22,822 nt of DNA. It comes from a virus. The notes under the pieces were generated by a model, which worked only from the letters and a program-made list of their open reading frames with translations, searched no databases and had not been told where the DNA came from. Position numbers and translations under genes: made by a program. The stretch lies in IMG/VR virus record IMGVR_UViG_3300017971_000785, positions 1 through 22,822 of that record, one strand, 5' to 3'. Positions 11,532-22,822 of the stretch are shown piece after piece; within the stretch, counting starts at the first letter, position 1; every line of letters starts with the position of its first letter.

Positions 11532-11792
11532 CTAAGTCCCCAACAGCGCCCGGCCGCTGTCGGTGATCTTCCACTTGCGCGGGCCTCCGAGCTCCGGGTT
11601 GACCCCGGCGATATAGCCGTTGCTGTCCAGCCAATCCATCTGCGCCTGGCACTCCACGCGCGTCGGCGGCGGCGCCGCAGCCAGCTCCAGCGAGGTGATC
11701 AAAGCCGGCTCCGGCAACAGATAGCTGCCGCAATCCGCCAACGTCCTCAAAATCCCCAGGCGAATAAGAGCTGTCCTCTGATCGCTATTCAC
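11532..11792 (-). CDS. Winged-helix protein, VpaChn25_0724-like (Mu gp26 position), 86 aa
   Basis: The start codon is GTG 11792, with GGAGG five bases upstream; it overlaps the previous gene's stop (GTGA). The product reads MNSDQRTALIRLGILRTLADCGSYLLPEPALITSLELAAAPPPTRVECQAQMDWLDSNGYIAGVNPELGGPRKWKITDSGRALLGT. Helices, a recognition-helix-like RVECQAQMDWLDSNGYI, a wing and the final 'kiTdsGra.L' are typical of winged-helix proteins of the VpaChn25_0724 family. That family lies between the DUF2730 and DUF3486 genes in Mu-like phages, exactly as here. Its biochemical role is not known to me. Confidence 0.7.
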   Translation of the reverse strand: MNSDQRTALIRLGILRTLADCGSYLLPEPALITSLELAAAPPPTRVECQAQMDWLDSNGYIAGVNPELGGPRKWKITDSGRALLGT

Positions 11793-12229
11793 GCTTTCCT
11801 CCCTCTCAGGCTGTGCACCTCGCCGCGGACCTCGCCGACGGCCTCCAGAACTCGATTCGTGTGCGCCGTAAAAAGCTGCTGCATGGCGTCAATGCGTTTA
11901 TGCACGCCGGTGCAATCGGCGCGGAATTCGCGGCGCAGGGCCTCGTCGTGATTTGCCGCGCCGGCCTCGACGTCGTTGATACGCTGGTTCTGCGCCGAGT
12001 GGATCGCCAGGCAGTCTTTGCGCAGGCGCGGGCGCCTGGCCTCGTCTTCTTCCGGCTCGTGGGCAAAACCGCCGGTCATGCGCCGCCACATCTGGCTAAC
12101 CTGGTTAAACGCGATTGCCGCCAGCGTCAGGCCCATCAGCCAGTAGACCAGCACGGGCATATCCTCTCCCCACAACGCCAGCGTCATGGGGGCCATCGGT
12201 ATCAGCGATTTGACCAGGCTGTGCGTCAT
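11789..12229 (-). CDS. Membrane-anchored coiled-coil protein, DUF2730 (Mu gp25)-like, 146 aa
   Basis: One transmembrane segment is visible at about residues 25-44 (VLVYWLMGLTLAAIAFNQVS). A charged linker (HEPEEDEARRPRLRKD) and a C-terminal helical region with coiled-coil character (NQRINDVEAGAANHDEALRREFRADCTGVHKRIDAMQQLF, then RVLEAVGEVRGEVHSL) follow. This matches the DUF2730 layout and gene order. It is ATGA-coupled to the lipoprotein gene upstream and GTGA-coupled to the winged-helix gene. With no Shine-Dalgarno at ATG 12229, translation probably depends on coupling. A lysis-related (spanin-like) role together with the lipoprotein is possible but unproven. Confidence 0.65.
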   Translation of the reverse strand: MTHSLVKSLIPMAPMTLALWGEDMPVLVYWLMGLTLAAIAFNQVSQMWRRMTGGFAHEPEEDEARRPRLRKDCLAIHSAQNQRINDVEAGAANHDEALRREFRADCTGVHKRIDAMQQLFTAHTNRVLEAVGEVRGEVHSLRGRKA

Positions 12230-15143: not shown

Positions 15144-15878
15144 ATGACCGAACAGAAGGCAGCGAAGGAAGCAAAGGCGATCGAGCCGGAGGTTCTGCCG
15201 GCGGAGCCGGCCGAGACAAAGCCGGCCAGGCGGGCGAACATCCTGGCGATCGCGCCGGAGCGGAGTCTTCCGGAGCGCGCGACGGTGATCGTCGACTATC
15301 ACAACGCGGCGATGACGGCCTATGCCCAGAGCGCGATGTATGCGCTCCTCTGCGGGTTTGAGCTGCATGCGGCCCGCGCGCAGATCGCGCATGGCCAATG
15401 GATCCCGTGGGTCGAGGAGCACTGCCCGTTCGACCGTACTACCGCCTGGCGGTACATGGAGGCGGCCAAGCGGAAATTCAAGGAGCTGCCAAATGTTGCA
15501 CGCGTTCAACATTTCGCCCTGGGGGTGTCGCCCCTGGAATTGCCGGCGGATCGGCGCGCGGAGCTGATTGAGGCGGTCAAGCAAGCCACGGACGGCCAGA
15601 CATGGACACAGCTCGGGCTTGAGCTCGGAGTCATCAAGCAGCCCAAGACCGGCTACCAGAAATACCACCCGCGCAAGAATTTGACTGCCGAGGAGCAGGA
15701 ATCGGCCATCCGCGCGGCCGTCGGCAAGTCGTGGCACGATTTGCTCCGCAGCCTCCAGATGCATGGCATCGACGAGTGCACCTGGGGCTATCTGTCGGAT
15801 GTCGAGAAAGAAGTCGTCGTCGGCCTGCTTGACGAGGTTTCCAAGACGATCAAGAAGGCGCTGAGGGGGAAGAAATAA
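15144..15878 (+). CDS. DUF3102-like early protein, 244 aa
   Basis: Residues ~65-110 (YALLCGFELHAARAQIAHGQWIPWVEEHCPFDRTTAWRYMEAAKRKFKEL) match the DUF3102 core: 'G..L..ar....hG.w..wle......rtA.rYM..a'. This region is found in phage and plasmid proteins that may act in DNA binding or partition. A second helical region follows (LTAEEQESAIRAAVGKSWHDLLRSLQMHGIDECTWGYLSDVEKEVVVGLLDEVSKTIKKAL). The first residues, MTEQKAAKEAKAIEPE, are encoded by a copy of the GAACAGAAGG repeat. It sits directly before the transposase with a TAATG overlap and may be a transposition accessory protein, by context. Confidence 0.75.
   Translation: MTEQKAAKEAKAIEPEVLPAEPAETKPARRANILAIAPERSLPERATVIVDYHNAAMTAYAQSAMYALLCGFELHAARAQIAHGQWIPWVEEHCPFDRTTAWRYMEAAKRKFKELPNVARVQHFALGVSPLELPADRRAELIEAVKQATDGQTWTQLGLELGVIKQPKTGYQKYHPRKNLTAEEQESAIRAAVGKSWHDLLRSLQMHGIDECTWGYLSDVEKEVVVGLLDEVSKTIKKALRGKK
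15150..15177 (+). repeat. GAACAGAAGG dispersed repeat, copy 5 (coding)
   Basis: It reads GAACAGAAGGCAGCGAAG then GAAGCAAAGG. It lies inside the 5' end of the DUF3102-like gene and encodes EQKAAKEAK, so either the repeat was taken into the reading frame or the true start lies farther downstream. Confidence 0.75.
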
Positions 15879-17965
15879 TGGACTATACAATCCCGGCGGA
15901 TGAGGTGCCCGAGCTTTGTACGTTGCCCGATGACGTACAGCAGGACGTTCGCCTGGCGCTGCGGGTGCTTTCGCGCATAGACAGCACTGCAAAGGGCGTG
16001 CAGGCGCGTATCAGGACCGAGGCAAGAGCCCTGCACGGCAAGCGCGGTTTTAGTGTGGCCAGCATCAACCGCAAGCGCTCTCTATATAAGGATAGCCGGG
16101 GCGATTGGCGCGTGCTGGTAGACGGCGCGCGGGCGCCGCAGTTTGCCGGCCCGACGCTGCCGCCGGAGTTTGTGGAGTTCTGGAAAGGCCTGGTCGACGA
16201 GAACCACCGCAAGTGCCGGCCGGCCTGGCGCAAGCTGGTGCGCCTCTGGCACGCGGGCGAGCCGGTCCCAGGCTACGGGGCCTGGCCGGAGTGGTTCCTC
16301 AAAGCCCACCGCGGCCGGTCGCTGCCGCGCTCCTGCCCGCCGGATCTGCCGCAGGGCTGGAGCTATCGCAACCTGATGCGCTTCAAGCCCGCGACGGCCG
16401 AGCGCGCGCTTACGCAGCGCGGAGTGAACGCAGCGCGCCTCGAGCTGCCGACGGTGATCGGCACGCGCGAGGGCTTGAGGTTCATGGAGTGGGTCGTGCT
16501 GGACGACTGGCGCAGCGACTTTCGCGTGGTGGATCCGCGCGCGCAGAAGGCGGTGCAGCTCAACGGAATCCTGGCGCTGGACGTAGCCTGCGCGCTGGCA
16601 ATGCGTTTCGTCGTGCGGCCGGCTGTGCCCCAGGAGGACGGCACGGAGGAGGGCCTCAAGCGGCGCGACGCCAAGGCGGTGATCGCCGGGATCCTGCTGA
16701 CCTACGGATATCCGCTCGACTACATCTGCAACATTATCGTGGAGCGCGGCACGGCGACGATCTCTCCGGATGACGCCGCGGCGATCGAGGAGGCTACCGG
16801 CGGCCAGGTCAAGATCCACTATACATCTATGATCTCCGGCTCGGTCTTCGGCTATGCCGACCGGCCCCTGGGGAACTTCCTGGGCAAGGCGTGGCTGGAG
16901 AGCTACTTTAACCTGACCCACAACGAGGCCGCCGACCTGCCCGGCCAGATCGGCGCGCGCTACGACCTGGCGCCGCAGTCCACCGAGATGAAGATGCGCG
17001 AGGCTGCCGCCCTGGTAAAGGCGGGTCAATTCCTGCCGCCGGAGGCCCGGCGCGAGCTGGCGTATCCTTTCCTGGACACGAACGAAGCGCGCATTTCCCT
17101 GGAGCATATCTTCCGGCGTCTGAACAACCGCGTCGAGCACGAGCTCGAGGGGTTCGAGCGGGTTATGGAGTGGCGCGAGGCCCGGCTGGAACAGTGGCGG
17201 CCGGCGCCCGAGGCCCTGGGCATGCCGCGCGAGGTGCAGGACCTGCTGGAGTGGCGCACACGTTCGGAAACGCCCTGGGAGCGCTACGAGCGCATGGCGC
17301 GCGAGGCCAGGTTCGAGAAGCTGCATTTTGCCTGCATGCCGCGCATCCTGGAGGAACATAAGCGCGTGTCGATCGATAAGCCCGGCGAGCTGCGCCTGAC
17401 GATCCGCGGCAAGGCGCGGGTCTACCAGGATCTCGACAACGCCGCGCTGGAGGCCGGCGCAGAATTCCTGGCCTATTACGACGGCGCCGATCCGGACTGG
17501 ATCCACCTCACCGACGGCCGCGGCAGATACGTGGCCAGCGTGCGCGAGGCAAAGGGCGTGCGCCGCGGCGACCACGAAGCGCTGGCCGAGGCCATCCGCG
17601 CCAAGCAGGCGCAGCTCAACCGCACGCTGACCGCCGTAGAAAAGCGCAACGCCCCGCGCCTGGCCGGGCGCCTGCAAGCGATCGAGCACAACCAGCGCCT
17701 GCTGGACGAGGCCACCGCCGACGAAGAGGCCATCAATCTTGTGCCGGCCGCCGCCGGCGGGGCCGGAGAAGCGCCGGTATTCGTGCGAGCGATCGACGCC
17801 GTTGCCCACGCTCAAGCCGACATTGCCGAGCAGACCCGCCGCACGCGCGAACGCATTGCCGGCACGCGCGGCTCGCTCGACGACGTCCTCGGCCCCGCGC
17901 CCGTTGCCGTTGGCGCCGCGGCCGATGACGAAGACGATCTCTCGGAACTGGACCAGATGCTCTAA
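15878..17965 (+). CDS. MuA-like DDE transposase, 695 aa
   Basis: The protein carries out strand transfer for integration and replicative transposition. N-terminal DNA-binding segments (about 1-200) precede the rve-type core. D209/D210 in WVVLDDWRSDFRVVD are the first acidic residues. NIIVERGTATIS supplies the second position as E289 instead of Asp. E341 in LGNFLGKAWLESYFNLTHNEAADLPGQIG is the final Glu, corresponding to 'kp.vErxF' in MuA. A beta-rich region follows (ELRLTIRGKARVYQDLDNA..FLAYYDGADPDWIHLTDGRGRYVASV), then a helical C-terminus with an acidic end (DDEDDLSELDQML), as in proteins that contact MuB and ClpX. Length is close to MuA. AGGGGGA precedes the start, which overlaps the upstream stop. 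Confidence 0.88.
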   Translation: MDYTIPADEVPELCTLPDDVQQDVRLALRVLSRIDSTAKGVQARIRTEARALHGKRGFSVASINRKRSLYKDSRGDWRVLVDGARAPQFAGPTLPPEFVEFWKGLVDENHRKCRPAWRKLVRLWHAGEPVPGYGAWPEWFLKAHRGRSLPRSCPPDLPQGWSYRNLMRFKPATAERALTQRGVNAARLELPTVIGTREGLRFMEWVVLDDWRSDFRVVDPRAQKAVQLNGILALDVACALAMRFVVRPAVPQEDGTEEGLKRRDAKAVIAGILLTYGYPLDYICNIIVERGTATISPDDAAAIEEATGGQVKIHYTSMISGSVFGYADRPLGNFLGKAWLESYFNLTHNEAADLPGQIGARYDLAPQSTEMKMREAAALVKAGQFLPPEARRELAYPFLDTNEARISLEHIFRRLNNRVEHELEGFERVMEWREARLEQWRPAPEALGMPREVQDLLEWRTRSETPWERYERMAREARFEKLHFACMPRILEEHKRVSIDKPGELRLTIRGKARVYQDLDNAALEAGAEFLAYYDGADPDWIHLTDGRGRYVASVREAKGVRRGDHEALAEAIRAKQAQLNRTLTAVEKRNAPRLAGRLQAIEHNQRLLDEATADEEAINLVPAAAGGAGEAPVFVRAIDAVAHAQADIAEQTRRTRERIAGTRGSLDDVLGPAPVAVGAAADDEDDLSELDQML

Positions 17966-18012: not shown

Positions 18013-19065
18013 ATGACAGACCAGGCTATCGATCAGACGCTCGAACAGCAGGGCAACACGCCGCGGGCGACGTGGCCCTTCGGCGGCGACCACGTAATGC
18101 AGGCCACCGCCAGGATGAAGCCCGCGCATCGCGACGCCGTGCGGTGGTTCTTCTTCCACTGCATCGAACAGGACCTCACGATGGACGACGCCTCGCGCGC
18201 CATCCACTACGACCGCACCACGATCTACCGCGTCTGCCGCGGCGAGTATAAGGCGGACCTTGCCAAGGTGGTCGATGCCATCCGCTCCTGGAAGAAGATC
18301 TGCGAGCAGCGCGTCGGCATCATCGCAAGCACCTTTGTCGAGACCGCCACCGCCCGGAAGATCTGGAAGGTGTGCGACGCCGCCGTGGCCTATAACTCCA
18401 TTGCCTTCATCTTCGGCGACTCCCAGATCGGCAAGACCTGGGCACTCGAGGAATACGCCCGCCGACACAACCACGGCCAGACGCGCTATATCCGCATGGC
18501 GGCCAGCTCGGGCACGCAGCTTATGATGAAGCTCCTGGCCGAGGCCTGCGGCTTTAGCTCGAGGGGCTGCTTCGAGAACCTGCGCAGCCGGGTGCTCAAA
18601 GCGCTCGACGAGAACACTCTGGTGATCGTCGACGAGCTGCACCTGGCGTTCTTCACGTATCACAAGCAGGCGCGGCTTTCCTGCCTGGAGGTCCTGCGCG
18701 AGCTGCACGACCGCACGAAGTGCCCGATGGTGCTCTGCGGTACCAATGTCGCCAGCGAAGAAATCAACCGCGGCCCGCAGAAGGAGTATCTTGAACAGCT
18801 CCGGCGGCGCGGGGTCTTCAAGCTGCAGCTCCCGAAGTACGCCACGCAGAGCGACCTCAACGCCATTGCAAAGTCCTTCGGCCTTGCCGCGCCTGATGGC
18901 GACGCCGCCGAGCTCGTCAAGCAGATCATCCGCGCCAACGGGCTCAAGGCCTATGTCTCGTATCTCCAGGCCGCCAACCGCATGGCCGCCAACACCAAGA
19001 AGACAATCTCCTGGAAGCACTTCATCCAGGCTCACGACGTGATCGCAAAACTCAGCGCAGCATAA
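18013..19065 (+). CDS. MuB-like AAA ATPase, target-capture protein, 350 aa
   Basis: An N-terminal HTH-like part (HRDAVRWFFFHCIEQDLTMDDASRAIHYDRTTIYRVCRGEYKADLAKVVDAI) is followed by an AAA+ core. Walker A is GDSQIGKTW (K141), Walker B is LVIVDELH (D207, E208), and sensor 1 is MVLCGTN (N245). Arginine-rich LEQLRRRGVFKLQLP and a C-terminal helical lid (AAELVKQIIRANGLKAYVSYLQAANRMAA) complete the fold. MuB binds DNA as an ATP-dependent filament, delivers target DNA and activates MuA; gene order right after the transposase matches. GAAAGGGGACCGA precedes the ATG. All ATPase residues appear intact. Confidence 0.88.
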   Translation: MTDQAIDQTLEQQGNTPRATWPFGGDHVMQATARMKPAHRDAVRWFFFHCIEQDLTMDDASRAIHYDRTTIYRVCRGEYKADLAKVVDAIRSWKKICEQRVGIIASTFVETATARKIWKVCDAAVAYNSIAFIFGDSQIGKTWALEEYARRHNHGQTRYIRMAASSGTQLMMKLLAEACGFSSRGCFENLRSRVLKALDENTLVIVDELHLAFFTYHKQARLSCLEVLRELHDRTKCPMVLCGTNVASEEINRGPQKEYLEQLRRRGVFKLQLPKYATQSDLNAIAKSFGLAAPDGDAAELVKQIIRANGLKAYVSYLQAANRMAANTKKTISWKHFIQAHDVIAKLSAA

Positions 19066-19082: not shown

Positions 19083-19640
19083 ATGGCCAGACGCATCAAG
19101 CCCACCAACAAGTACAACGCCGAGACCCGCCAGGACGCCGAGCAGCTTGTCTACCGGCTCGCCGTCCAGCAGGCCCAGGTCAACACACTCACGCTCCAGA
19201 TGGAGACCCACATCCACGACGTGCGCGAGCGCTTCGCCGCCCGGATCGACGCCGGCCAGGCGGAAATTGACGACCTCGCCCGCGGCCTGGAAGCCTGGGC
19301 CGCTGCCAATCCGCAGGAGTTCCCCAGGGACCGCAAGTCGATCGACTTCGTGCACGGCGCGATCGGCTTCCGCACCGGCACTCCCAAGGTCAAGAAAGGC
19401 CGGCGCTTTCCCAACCTGGAGGCCGTGGCCGAGGCCATGCGCAAGCTCCCCTGGGCGCGCAAGTACGTCAAGCAGGCCGCCCCCACGGTCAACAAGCCGG
19501 CCTTGATTGCCGACCGCGACAAGCTCACCGCCGAGCAGCTCAACACCCTGGGCCTGGCGATCGTCCAGGACGAGAGCTTTTTCGTAGAGCCCAAGTGCGA
19601 GGATCTCCAGCAGGGCGTCAGCGTCAGCGACGCCGCGTGA
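19083..19640 (+). CDS. gam: Mu Gam-like DNA-end protection protein, 185 aa
   Basis: The protein has a helical N-terminal coiled coil (AEQLVYRLAVQQAQVNTLTLQMETHIHDVRERFAARIDAGQAEIDDLARGLEAWAAANPQEF). The family signature DRKSIDFVHGAIGFRTGTPKVKK follows, then LPWARKYVKQAAPTVNKPALIADRDKLTAEQLNTLGLAIVQDESFFVEPK. This is the Phage_Mu_Gam pattern, in which a Ku-like dimer binds duplex ends and blocks host exonucleases during transposition. Length is normal. AAAGGAA lies a few bases before the ATG. It is the last clearly Mu-type early gene before the accessory segment. Confidence 0.87.
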   Translation: MARRIKPTNKYNAETRQDAEQLVYRLAVQQAQVNTLTLQMETHIHDVRERFAARIDAGQAEIDDLARGLEAWAAANPQEFPRDRKSIDFVHGAIGFRTGTPKVKKGRRFPNLEAVAEAMRKLPWARKYVKQAAPTVNKPALIADRDKLTAEQLNTLGLAIVQDESFFVEPKCEDLQQGVSVSDAA

Positions 19641-19761: not shown

Positions 19762-20055
19762 GTGAAAGACATTAGGAAGACGTTTGCATGGAAGACGCGG
19801 CAGATCGGCTGGGCGTGCGAGACCATGAACCGGGCATCGGATGCCATCGGGTGGATTGACCGCCACGCGCCGACTTGGCTGGCCGATCTGCTCTACCACG
19901 TCTACTGGAATGTGGACGCCTGGGCGTCGGCCTGGTTTGCGTGCGCGTACCAGGGTAGCCGCGAGGAGATCCACGACGCATGGGAGCACGAGGACGAGGA
20001 CTGGCTGTCCCCGTTTCAGAGGATGGTGGCCGATGGACGCATACTTCCTTTGTAG
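19762..20055 (+). CDS. Trp-rich small protein of unknown function, 97 aa
   Basis: The start is GTG 19762 with GGAGG six bases upstream. The product MKDIRKTFAWKTRQIGWACETMNRASDAIGWIDRHAPTWLADLLYHVYWNVDAWASAWFACAYQGSREEIHDAWEHEDEDWLSPFQRMVADGRILPL contains nine Trp in 97 residues. It has amphipathic helices with a weakly hydrophobic centre (WLADLLYHVYWNVDAWASAWFACAY) and an acidic patch (EEIHDAWEHEDED). No family is recognised. A 9-bp inverted repeat brackets it; a hairpin precedes it and two structured elements follow. It may be a stand-alone accessory gene; a membrane-associated or host-interacting protein is possible but not shown. Confidence 0.65.
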   Translation: MKDIRKTFAWKTRQIGWACETMNRASDAIGWIDRHAPTWLADLLYHVYWNVDAWASAWFACAYQGSREEIHDAWEHEDEDWLSPFQRMVADGRILPL

Positions 20056-20067
20056 TTCCAACGTGAA

Positions 20068-20150
20068 GGTTGACCGGACATGAACAGCGCGACACACAGG
20101 CCAGCCTCCAGCGACAGCGTTCGCCGCGCTGTTCATGGTACGGTCGGACC
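20068..20150 (+). ncRNA. Structured element 1: long hairpin with 13-bp perfect stem
   Basis: CATGAACAGCGCG (20079-20091) and CGCGCTGTTCATG (20125-20137) pair perfectly. Outside them GACCG/CGGTC (20072-20076, 20141-20145) and GGT/ACC (20068-20070, 20148-20150) extend the stem across small internal loops, making 21 pairs. The loop is 33 bases. Type (RNA versus DNA structure) and strand are inferred. Confidence 0.5.
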
Positions 20151-20154
20151 GCTG

Positions 20155-20346
20155 GTTGGCGATTGCCGTGACTACCACCTCGGCTATTGCCGGCCCAAGT
20201 TCCCCCGTATGTGCCGGAGAATGTTCTTTTTGACTTGCGAGAGACAGCGCGTGCCAGGAACTCCCGCCCAGGAGTCCCGAAGCACGGATGCACGTAGGGC
20301 GGCGCGGGAAGGATCACCAGCCGCGCTGTCTCTCCCTATCGCCAAC
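20155..20346 (+). ncRNA. Structured element 2: multibranched inverted-repeat structure
   Basis: The outer stem is GTTGGCGAT/ATCGCCAAC (20155-20163, 20338-20346). The inner 13-bp stem is GAGAGACAGCGCG/CGCGCTGTCTCTC (20239-20251, 20322-20334). Inside, CGTGC/GCACG encloses GGAACTCC/GGAGTCCC (one mismatch). The inner eight pairs are the same as in element 1, whereas the outer five pairs differ with pairing retained. This is best explained as a structured RNA, or a DNA cruciform element. Confidence 0.5.
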
Positions 20347-20379
20347 AAGGCAATATTAAAACAAGAGCACTAACGAGCT

Positions 20380-20664
20380 ATGCGGAATTGGCGTAAATGG
20401 CGGGAGGGTGAAAAGCTGCGCAGCCAACGGGCCAGCTATGCGGCACAGTGCCGCTGGGCGCGGCATCACGCGGATGCGCCCAAAAGGGATGCGCGTAGAA
20501 TCGTGATTGAAATCCGCGATACCCATCGGCCAACACAATTGATACGCGCCGAGCAATGCGAAACCACCGATGGCCGCTGGAGCAGGTGGAGAATTGCGGG
20601 TTGCGGTTGCAGACCCGTCGCAGCGACGGGGCTGGCGCGGTTGATTGCGGAGGCCGTAAAATGA
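20380..20664 (+). CDS. Small Arg/Trp-rich protein coupled to radical SAM gene, 94 aa
   Basis: The product MRNWRKWREGEKLRSQRASYAAQCRWARHHADAPKRDARRIVIEIRDTHRPTQLIRAEQCETTDGRWSRWRIAGCGCRPVAATGLARLIAEAVK has a basic helical N-terminus, then a strand-rich part (RIVIEIRDTH...WSRWRIAG). C-G-C near the end and two other Cys could bind metal, but the spacing does not match a known motif. Its TGA overlaps the ATG of the radical SAM gene (ATGA), so the two are translated together. There is no clear Shine-Dalgarno. No family is recognised; coding is supported by codon character and coupling. Confidence 0.55.
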   Translation: MRNWRKWREGEKLRSQRASYAAQCRWARHHADAPKRDARRIVIEIRDTHRPTQLIRAEQCETTDGRWSRWRIAGCGCRPVAATGLARLIAEAVK

Positions 20665-21515
20665 GGATTCTTTACCGCACAACCGGCCGGGCCGCGGAGT
20701 ATGCGCCGTATAGCGCCAACCTTTATACGACGTGCCCTTATGCCTGCGACTACTGCTATGTGCCGAGCACTCCGCCCTTTCGAACAAAGGGTCTGACCGC
20801 CGCCGACTTCCACGCGCCCCCGCGCCTCAAACCCGGCGCGATCGCGCAGCTTCGCAAGGAGCTCAGGCGCCACTGGCCGTGCACGGGCCACGTGCTCTTT
20901 TCTTTCGGCTGCGACCCATACGCCGCCGGCCCGGACGGCAAGCGCCCGCTTGCCACGCGCGAGGCTCTCTTCGAGTGCGGCCTGGCCGGCGCCAAGGTGG
21001 CCATGCTTACCAAGGGCGGGCTGCAGGCCAAGCTGGACTTCGACCTCTATCAGTACGACTGGTGGTTCGGCGAGACGGTCGTGTTTGTGGACGACGACAA
21101 GATGTCGTACCCCGACTGTGCCAACTGCCCGAAAAACGACGGCGTGTGCCTGGGCGATGACAATTGCCCGATGGGCGGATGGGAGCCCTACGCCGCGAGC
21201 TTTGCCGATCGTGAGGCCGCCTTGCAGATCGCCCGCGACAATGGCATCCACACCTGGGTCAGTCTCGAGCCGGTTGTCTATACGTCTCAGGCCCTGGAGG
21301 TAATCGACCGCCTGCTGCCCTGGGTGGACCACTGGAAGATCGGCAAGCTCAACGCCCGCAAGCCCGAACATAAGCGGATAGAACAGTCCCAGGACTGGCC
21401 GAAGTTCCTGGCCGATGCGCGCAAGCTTCTTTCCTCTTATATAGAGGACGGCGATCCCGGCGAATTTCGCCCCAACACCTACTACGTCAAACAGAGCCTC
21501 TTGAAAGCCGCGTAA
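20661..21515 (+). CDS. Radical SAM enzyme, spore-photoproduct-lyase-like style, 284 aa
   Basis: ATG 20661 is chosen because GGAGG lies seven bases upstream; the extra upstream residues of the open frame belong to another gene. YSANLYTTCPYACDYCYVPSTPPF carries the 4Fe-4S motif C25-x3-C29-x2-C32. Then come FSFGCDPYAAG, TKGGLQAKLDFDLY and, near the end, VSLEPVVYTSQALEVIDRLLPWVDHWKIGKLN, strands typical of the partial TIM barrel. A second Cys cluster lies at C153-x2-C156-x6-C163-x5-C169 (CANCPKNDGVCLGDDNC), possibly an auxiliary metal site. The reaction is unknown; DNA or nucleotide modification, or repair, is plausible for a phage. Confidence 0.8.
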   Translation: MRILYRTTGRAAEYAPYSANLYTTCPYACDYCYVPSTPPFRTKGLTAADFHAPPRLKPGAIAQLRKELRRHWPCTGHVLFSFGCDPYAAGPDGKRPLATREALFECGLAGAKVAMLTKGGLQAKLDFDLYQYDWWFGETVVFVDDDKMSYPDCANCPKNDGVCLGDDNCPMGGWEPYAASFADREAALQIARDNGIHTWVSLEPVVYTSQALEVIDRLLPWVDHWKIGKLNARKPEHKRIEQSQDWPKFLADARKLLSSYIEDGDPGEFRPNTYYVKQSLLKAA

Positions 21516-22783: not shown

Positions 22784-22822
22784 AGACCGCCATCTGCATC
22801 GGCACCAACGGTGACGGCGTGC
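22774..22822 (+). CDS. Start of a further early gene (cut by window edge)
   Basis: ATG 22774 overlaps the end of the previous gene by ten bases and is preceded by AAAGGAA about nine bases upstream. Sixteen residues are visible, MPLKTAICIGTNGDGV. That is too little to assign a family. Confidence 0.5.
   Translation, partial: MPLKTAICIGTNGDGV

Follow-up and report, generated by a model that had tools for sequence, protein, structure and literature searches.

What are the two hairpins that lie next to each other in the early region of a Mu-like phage, and which process would keep such palindromes intact? The window, by which we mean the whole stretch of DNA analysed, is an IMG/VR virus record of 22,822 bases from a Mu-like phage. 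Its plus strand carries genes for a MuA-like transposase (15878-17965), a MuB/TniB-like ATPase (18013-19065) and Gam (19083-19640), and the terminase, portal and head genes are on the minus strand. Gam is followed by a small gene encoding 97 aa (19762-20055, +), which has a coding signal and matches no family of Pfam, PHROGs or NCBIfam, and, beyond the hairpins, by a 94-aa frame with atypical codon use (20380-20664, +) and a radical SAM protein gene (20661-21515, +), for which the Pfam score is under the cut-off and phage relatives back the assignment. Among viral contigs we found no relatives of the window through its Gam, radical SAM or MuB proteins, and DNA similarity searches of phages and plasmids returned either nothing or short matches with E values of at least 1.

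Two hairpins in a phage early region

The preliminary description had reported two perfect 13-bp stems starting 160 nt apart, and both are present: hairpin A pairs 20079-20091 with 20125-20137 around a 33-nt loop and hairpin B pairs 20239-20251 with 20322-20334 around a 70-nt loop. The inner eight base pairs, ACAGCGCG/CGCGCTGT, are common to both stems, again as described. Besides A and B, the window has no perfect inverted repeat of at least 13 bp (loop 3-110 nt), and 200 first-order Markov resamples contained a mean of 0.125 such repeats, with a maximum of 3. The 8-mer ACAGCGCG has four copies in the window, exactly the four stem arms; four copies are not unusual per se, the expected number being 2.71 and 30 of 100 shuffles reaching four. 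Folding of 20050-20360 gave z-scores of -3.67 for the plus and -4.24 for the minus strand, in line with the proposed structure, and the remark that no known RNA family is recognisable agrees with Rfam, where no match rose above the gathering threshold and the best matches were at chance level (E 1.4 and 2.2).

The view that the stretch is gene-free holds in part. A 97-codon frame beginning with ATG (20080-20373, +) does span both hairpins, but it lacks the codon preference of the window, with a value of -0.256 versus 0.149 to 0.583 in 17 reference genes and a synonymous-only codon score of -0.18 versus 0.21 to 0.48. No relatives of this frame were found, including as a known protein. The 94-aa frame downstream is similar (codon preference -0.238, synonymous-only -0.19), and the codon use of 20056-20660, some 600 bases that comprise both frames and exceed the cassette delimited below, is unlike that of the remaining phage; this segment may be recent foreign DNA.

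Relatives of hairpin A and compensatory change

Elements of the A type have four further members, L153a, L153b, L322 and L096, in three other phage contigs. Scans for the core (for viral contigs, 80 loci used for 120 stretches, among the matches listed) led to L153, a 12.2-kb IMG/VR contig, and, in genome contigs, to L322, which alone among 66 matches looked homologous. L322 is a contig with phage primase/helicase genes inside a MAG record named Paceibacterota (G051), which is probably a mixed bin. Apart from one 90-nt match (74%, E 1e-5), the window and L153 have no similarity with E below 0.01. In the gapless MAFFT alignment of A, L153a and L322, which is free of structure bias, both sides had changed in 4 of 23 pairs, with 0-1 in slid controls. 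Model R1 retrieved a short second element in L153, L153b (34.1 bits), which has the same outer parts around a GAA triloop and thereby exposed the outer AAC/GTT helix; when it was added, both-side changes were seen in 7 of 28 pairs (slid controls 0-1). The fifth element, L096, was found by model R2 on the plus strand in an unfiltered run (39.3 bits, E 5.6e-10); filtered R2 gave 23.6 bits on the minus strand there, and a prefiltered R2 genome search missed L096. The L096 contig is Mu-like, and its terminase is 60% identical to that of the window.

With all five sequences, both-side changes occur in 14 of 28 pairs and 96.2% of cells are paired, whereas slid controls gave 0-6 such pairs and 31.9-48.1% paired cells; these counts lean to the structure, since the five-member alignment was fitted to the structure model. 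The conserved structure of A extends over 20055-20162 and is larger than the stem described earlier. Compensated change had been read from a comparison of A with B; it is strong for A and its homologues in other phages, and it is there, not in the pair A and B, that it has been demonstrated.

Model R1 was run on 95 of the 101 loci L006-L106, on 100/100 of L107-L206 and 100/100 of L207-L306 and, of L307-L368, on L322 only. R2 covered 95 loci of L006-L106 and 99 of the 100 loci L107-L206 (L153 was searched separately) and, among L207-L372, only the L153 and L322 contigs. R3 was built from the five elements alone and was run unfiltered on L395 and L396 only and prefiltered on 3 and 11 records. 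Terminase loci were taken in for 50 of 80. In one locus, the portal gene L375:9447-12224 holds a seemingly intein-like insert, and an antisense frame at 11559-12221 resembles a Vsr/DUF559 endonuclease, both named from sequence.

Several weaker candidates were taken as chance matches. These are L180:946-1044 from the core scan (R1 25.6 bits, E 7e-4; R2 21.7 bits), in which several outer pairs are unpaired, L124 (R2 19.9 bits), L093:2315-2403, which equals G003:27314-27402 (R2 19.1 bits), and the other weak model matches with E above 0.01. Seventeen loci with a hairpin around CACACAGCGCGGCTTGG, first held to be related, have only the searched-for core in common with A and are without its boxes, and of the three stretches matched by the pattern CANGGTACGGTNNNNYCNNTGGTT L153 alone is real. 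The hairpin of these seventeen loci (L137:4195-4256, L181:5668-5718, L303:8572 and 14 more) is long and conserved, CCACACAGCGCGGCTTGG...CCGAGTCGCGCTGTGTGG; in the two that were read, L137 and L181, one and the same gene (MTQQYDQDYLKK...) follows it, and its apical pairs vary.

The attC reading and the probable extent of the cassette

The idea that A is an integron attC site came from an integrase gene near L096. This element sits between two methyltransferase genes (Pfam), and the integron-integrase-like gene (L096:11059-12021) is next but one to it. The integrase scores 184.8 bits with TIGR02249 (cut-off 265), above the XerD (101.7) and XerC (85.8) models, and its best solved structure is IntI4. 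TIGR02249 matched 3 of 53 records, and all 14 control genomes gave sub-cut-off matches; because the L096 score is itself below the cut-off and the controls match too, the name rests on the order of the scores and the IntI-like middle region rather than on the cut-off. Beside the site in L322 is one methyltransferase gene, identified by similarity to phage records only. Radical SAM-type genes are near the site in two phages, the window (20661-21515, SPL-like) and L153 (L153:1532-2311, DUF5131 by Pfam, which we take to be radical SAM), and are perhaps merely typical phage cargo. While three members were known, the element was read as a start-codon hairpin; L153b, L096 and the R3 matches described below moved the reading to attC.

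On this reading, the plus strand of the window corresponds to the attC bottom strand, on which the site, as bounded by models R1-R3, runs from 20055 to 20162. CCAAC at 20058-20062 is the complement of the R' (junction) box, which reads GTTGGAA on the minus strand, and GTTGGCGAT at 20155-20163 is the complement of the R'' box, for which the minus strand has ATCGCCAAC. The 5' arm of the L stem (AGGTT/GACCG, 20067-20076) pairs with 20141-20145 and 20147-20151, and the 3' side (20138-20151) has two extra positions, taken as T20139 and G20146. Hairpin A itself (20079-20137), with its 13-bp stem and 33-nt loop, is the variable terminal structure. The accessible part of PMC3518468 describes two extrahelical bases, T-N6-G, in the attC bottom strand, and the plus strand of A has T20139-N6-G20146 if, in the GA/GTA internal loop, the T is counted as extra. 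T-N6-G is found in 3 of the 5 members, and T-N6-C in L322 and, counting the first of two Ts, in L096.

The AAC and GTT of the R''/R' boxes are present in all five members. The full consensus RYYYAAC/GTTRRRY is absent from the window, the top strand of which reads CGCCAAC/GTTGGAA (native GTTGGCG); R' of A (GTTGGAA) and of the other members fits GTTRRRY partially and R'' (CGCCAAC) fits RYYYAAC poorly. This deviation is not decisive because boxes in the cassette gaps of Shewanella M16-3 also deviate (GTTATGA and GTTAAAA, by eye). A strict RYYYAAC/GTTRRRY scan finds hardly any M16-3 gaps and 0 of 3 sites in TJE1, and was therefore not used as a test. Sites of the attC type have a total length of 57-141 nt and a variable terminal structure. 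The members, with model-bounded lengths of 62-108 nt, lie within this range, and their apical part varies from the GAA triloop of L153b to the 13-bp stem and 33-nt loop of A. In common with integron attC sites of the aadA7/aadB and VCR type (in part after the accessible text of PMC3518468), the elements have AAC...GTT boxes, an unpaired spacer, an L stem with bottom-strand T-N6-G and a variable terminal structure. Unlike them, their R boxes are mostly GTTSGNN (bottom strand) instead of the full GTTRRRY, and the second extra base is C, not G, in 2 of 5 members.

TJE1 and Shewanella M16-3 are phages for which integron parts have been published (PMC9892861, accessible text). In TJE1, unfiltered R3 gave its three best matches of the record at 243-294, 1015-1076 and 1461-1520, with E values in that order of 0.12, 8e-6 and 0.035; the three best scores are 26.4, 15.3 and 13.7 bits, and the next match has E 0.64. 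Placed against the annotated ORFs, these are the inter-ORF sites of the published phage attC cluster, and all are on the minus strand where the ORFs are on the plus strand. In the M16-3 integron/CALIN, unfiltered R3 matched 9 distinct places at E<=1, of which 7 are located in, or extend across, a gap separating cassette ORFs; the remaining two are within a small ORF (34901) and adjoining the published attI (38694). The seven M16-3 and three TJE1 matches are on the strand opposite the ORFs, that is the attC bottom strand, and one of the seven scores on both strands (16.6 vs 24.4 bits). R3 touched 7 cassette gaps among 17 inspected M16-3 stretches, not all of which are attC, and missed others that look attC-like by eye. 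The prefiltered R3 search found nothing in three published phages, TJE1 and M16-3 included. In G051, R3 matched two further contigs, C58, where the match is just behind a toxin-antitoxin-like ORF of ParE/RelE type (named from its sequence) and the contig has an integrase remnant, and C73, which has a degraded integrase-like gene; a third match, at C283:6631-6689, is weak (20.5 bits, E 0.025). Contig C20 of the same record encodes a full integron integrase (368 bits), and the scan gave no convincing attC there.

The boundary of the cassette was sought by the rule that the first bases of an inserted cassette (TT...) complement R'' of its own attC. R'' of the window, ATCGCCAAC, shows 9 nt of complementarity with GTTGGCGAT at 20346-20338 (-), versus 5 nt for the junction box, which would place the cassette at 20062-20345, 284 bp on the minus strand (attC top strand). 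In TJE1, used as a control, the complementarity of R'' and start box is 8 and 8 nt, and that of its own junction boxes 5 and 4 nt. Start boxes were also found for two other members. In L153b the match spans 8 nt and gives a cassette of 298 bp; in L096 it spans 7 nt, lies 44 nt ahead of the integrase gene and gives one of 732 bp. Shuffles reached such matches at rates of 0.001 for the window, 0.0005 for L153b and 0.1 for L096. L322 and L153a have no convincing start box (shuffle rates 0.36 and 0.25). As background, a 9-nt match 100-400 nt upstream exists for 3 of 250 plus-strand and 3 of 269 minus-strand AACs of the window, the real one included, so that the boundary alone is an event of about 1%. 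The 97-aa frame 20080-20373 has its sole in-frame start within the attC and its stop just past this boundary, and is a possible cassette ORF.

Only one attC site was found in the 22.8 kb of the window, where the rule for a CALIN asks for at least two within a few kb and no intI; L153 has two sites. No TIGR02249 integron integrase is encoded in the window, the contig of which ends at 22822, and the locus is not a complete integron by that measure. The attC reading is based on covariation and conservation with four elements, the right-strand match to published attC-bearing loci and box complementarity. We conclude that A is very probably the folded core of an integron attC and 20062-20345 one cassette inserted between two early genes of the Mu-like phage. 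Of the roles proposed in the preliminary description, a structured recombination site is thus retained, for hairpin A only, and a regulatory or decoy RNA is not needed to explain A. We infer that the copy is still active and that IntI inserted it, and the same holds for the exact ends given for the cassette. An integron integrase supplied by the host, by another element in the same cell or by a lost or unsequenced part of the phage would recognise the single-stranded, folded plus strand (attC bottom strand) through the extrahelical T and G. Recombination by IntI is predicted at G|TT, and since the enzyme would act on the folded DNA, the palindrome would be retained.

Gene starts within the site and alternative explanations

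Neighbouring genes or frames run along the attC bottom strand in 5/5 members, opposite to ordinary cassettes, and by raw count the site contains, in all five, a start codon in register with the downstream frame. In the window, L322 and L096 this frame is closed upstream, so that it can start only within the site, and in the window, L153b and L096 it ends 18-30 nt past the inferred cassette end. With at least 3 of 5 downstream frames able to begin only inside the attC and the genes set against its polarity, the frames join the direction of the phage operon. Such starts are what a translation-control hairpin would lead one to expect, in which the mRNA fold of A keeps a Shine-Dalgarno-like GAAGG and the ATG at 20080 paired until a protein, or ribosomes translating upstream, open it. 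The first base of the start codon (ATG, TTG or GTG) pairs with the third base of CAT, CAA or CAC in A, L153a and L322, a full compensatory series (A-U, U-A, G-C), and the same three members have purine-rich stretches 8-10 nt upstream of the start. However, the place of the start codon is not fixed: three members have it in the 5' arm of the terminal stem, L096 in the loop and L153b in the 3' arm. It falls in the terminal part, which is the variable part of A-type elements. This explanation also leaves the R3 matches in published attC-bearing gaps and the box complementarity across the cassette unaccounted for, and we regard it as unlikely. The attC-type site may also affect translation of the cassette gene.

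Hairpin B (20239-20334, no strand given), close to the start of the inferred cassette and within it, is without any attC feature (R1 9.7 bits, E 0.5; no AAC/GTT boxes) and would be cassette cargo, possibly structured RNA cargo. Its eight shared base pairs match the variable terminal stem of A. This common 8-bp core, together with the occurrence of A-like elements in phages as dissimilar as the window and L153, would suit the in-frame insertion of a generic mobile palindrome, MITE or RPE-like, of which A and B would be two copies. Yet B has none of the outer boxes of A and scores at chance level, and the attC match accounts for these boxes and for the strand asymmetry; we consider a mobile element of this sort extremely improbable. 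That A, the middle hairpin and B together form a phage regulatory or decoy RNA would agree with the fold z-scores of both strands and with ORF-less cassettes, some encoding regulatory RNAs, that are on record in the accessible text of PMC8876359. Against it, the searches made found no homologue of B or the middle hairpin, A alone is conserved elsewhere and Rfam has no match, which makes this RNA very unlikely.

If A is an attC site, as we favour, it has published counterparts. According to the accessible text of PMC9892861, a recent report, phage integrons are rare: 10,705 genomes yielded 3 complete integrons, one In0 and 17 CALINs. Those of TJE1, P12002L, PH101 and Shewanella M16-3 have sites of attC type in accessory regions of the phage, in many cases next to genes for DNA methyltransferases; divergent attC directions are noted there for P12002L, and 'Mu-like' occurs in that text only in a reference. 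Apart from it, a search of the open-access literature by title and abstract start, weak as evidence, found no paper on integrons in phages. Unlike those cases, the present one combines a single site in a Mu-like phage with genes on the attC bottom strand and gene starts inside several attC hairpins; the carrier, the ORFs against attC polarity and the starts inside attC are the less usual features here. In the Treponema-type integron (PMC3607928, accessible text) intI and the cassette genes are co-directional, as in L096; there the transcription of intI is described as heading for attI, whereas in L096 it points away from its cassettes and the ORFs oppose attC polarity.

A wider view, which we hold tentatively and think on balance doubtful, is that a class of Mu-like phages has an integron platform of its own within the early operon, where the genes of integrase, cassette and phage are co-directional, the attC bottom strand is the mRNA strand and the hairpin carries the ribosome-binding site and start codon. 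If true, the recombination site would double as the translation-start module of the cassette gene and would serve these phages in the exchange of methyltransferases as anti-restriction genes. The attC reading of A would add Mu-like phages from metagenomic contigs to the phage carriers of integrons and suggests a route by which phages may acquire and exchange anti-restriction cassettes. The elements also suggest that an attC may be read from its bottom strand while its fold holds gene starts, which would tie recombination to translation.
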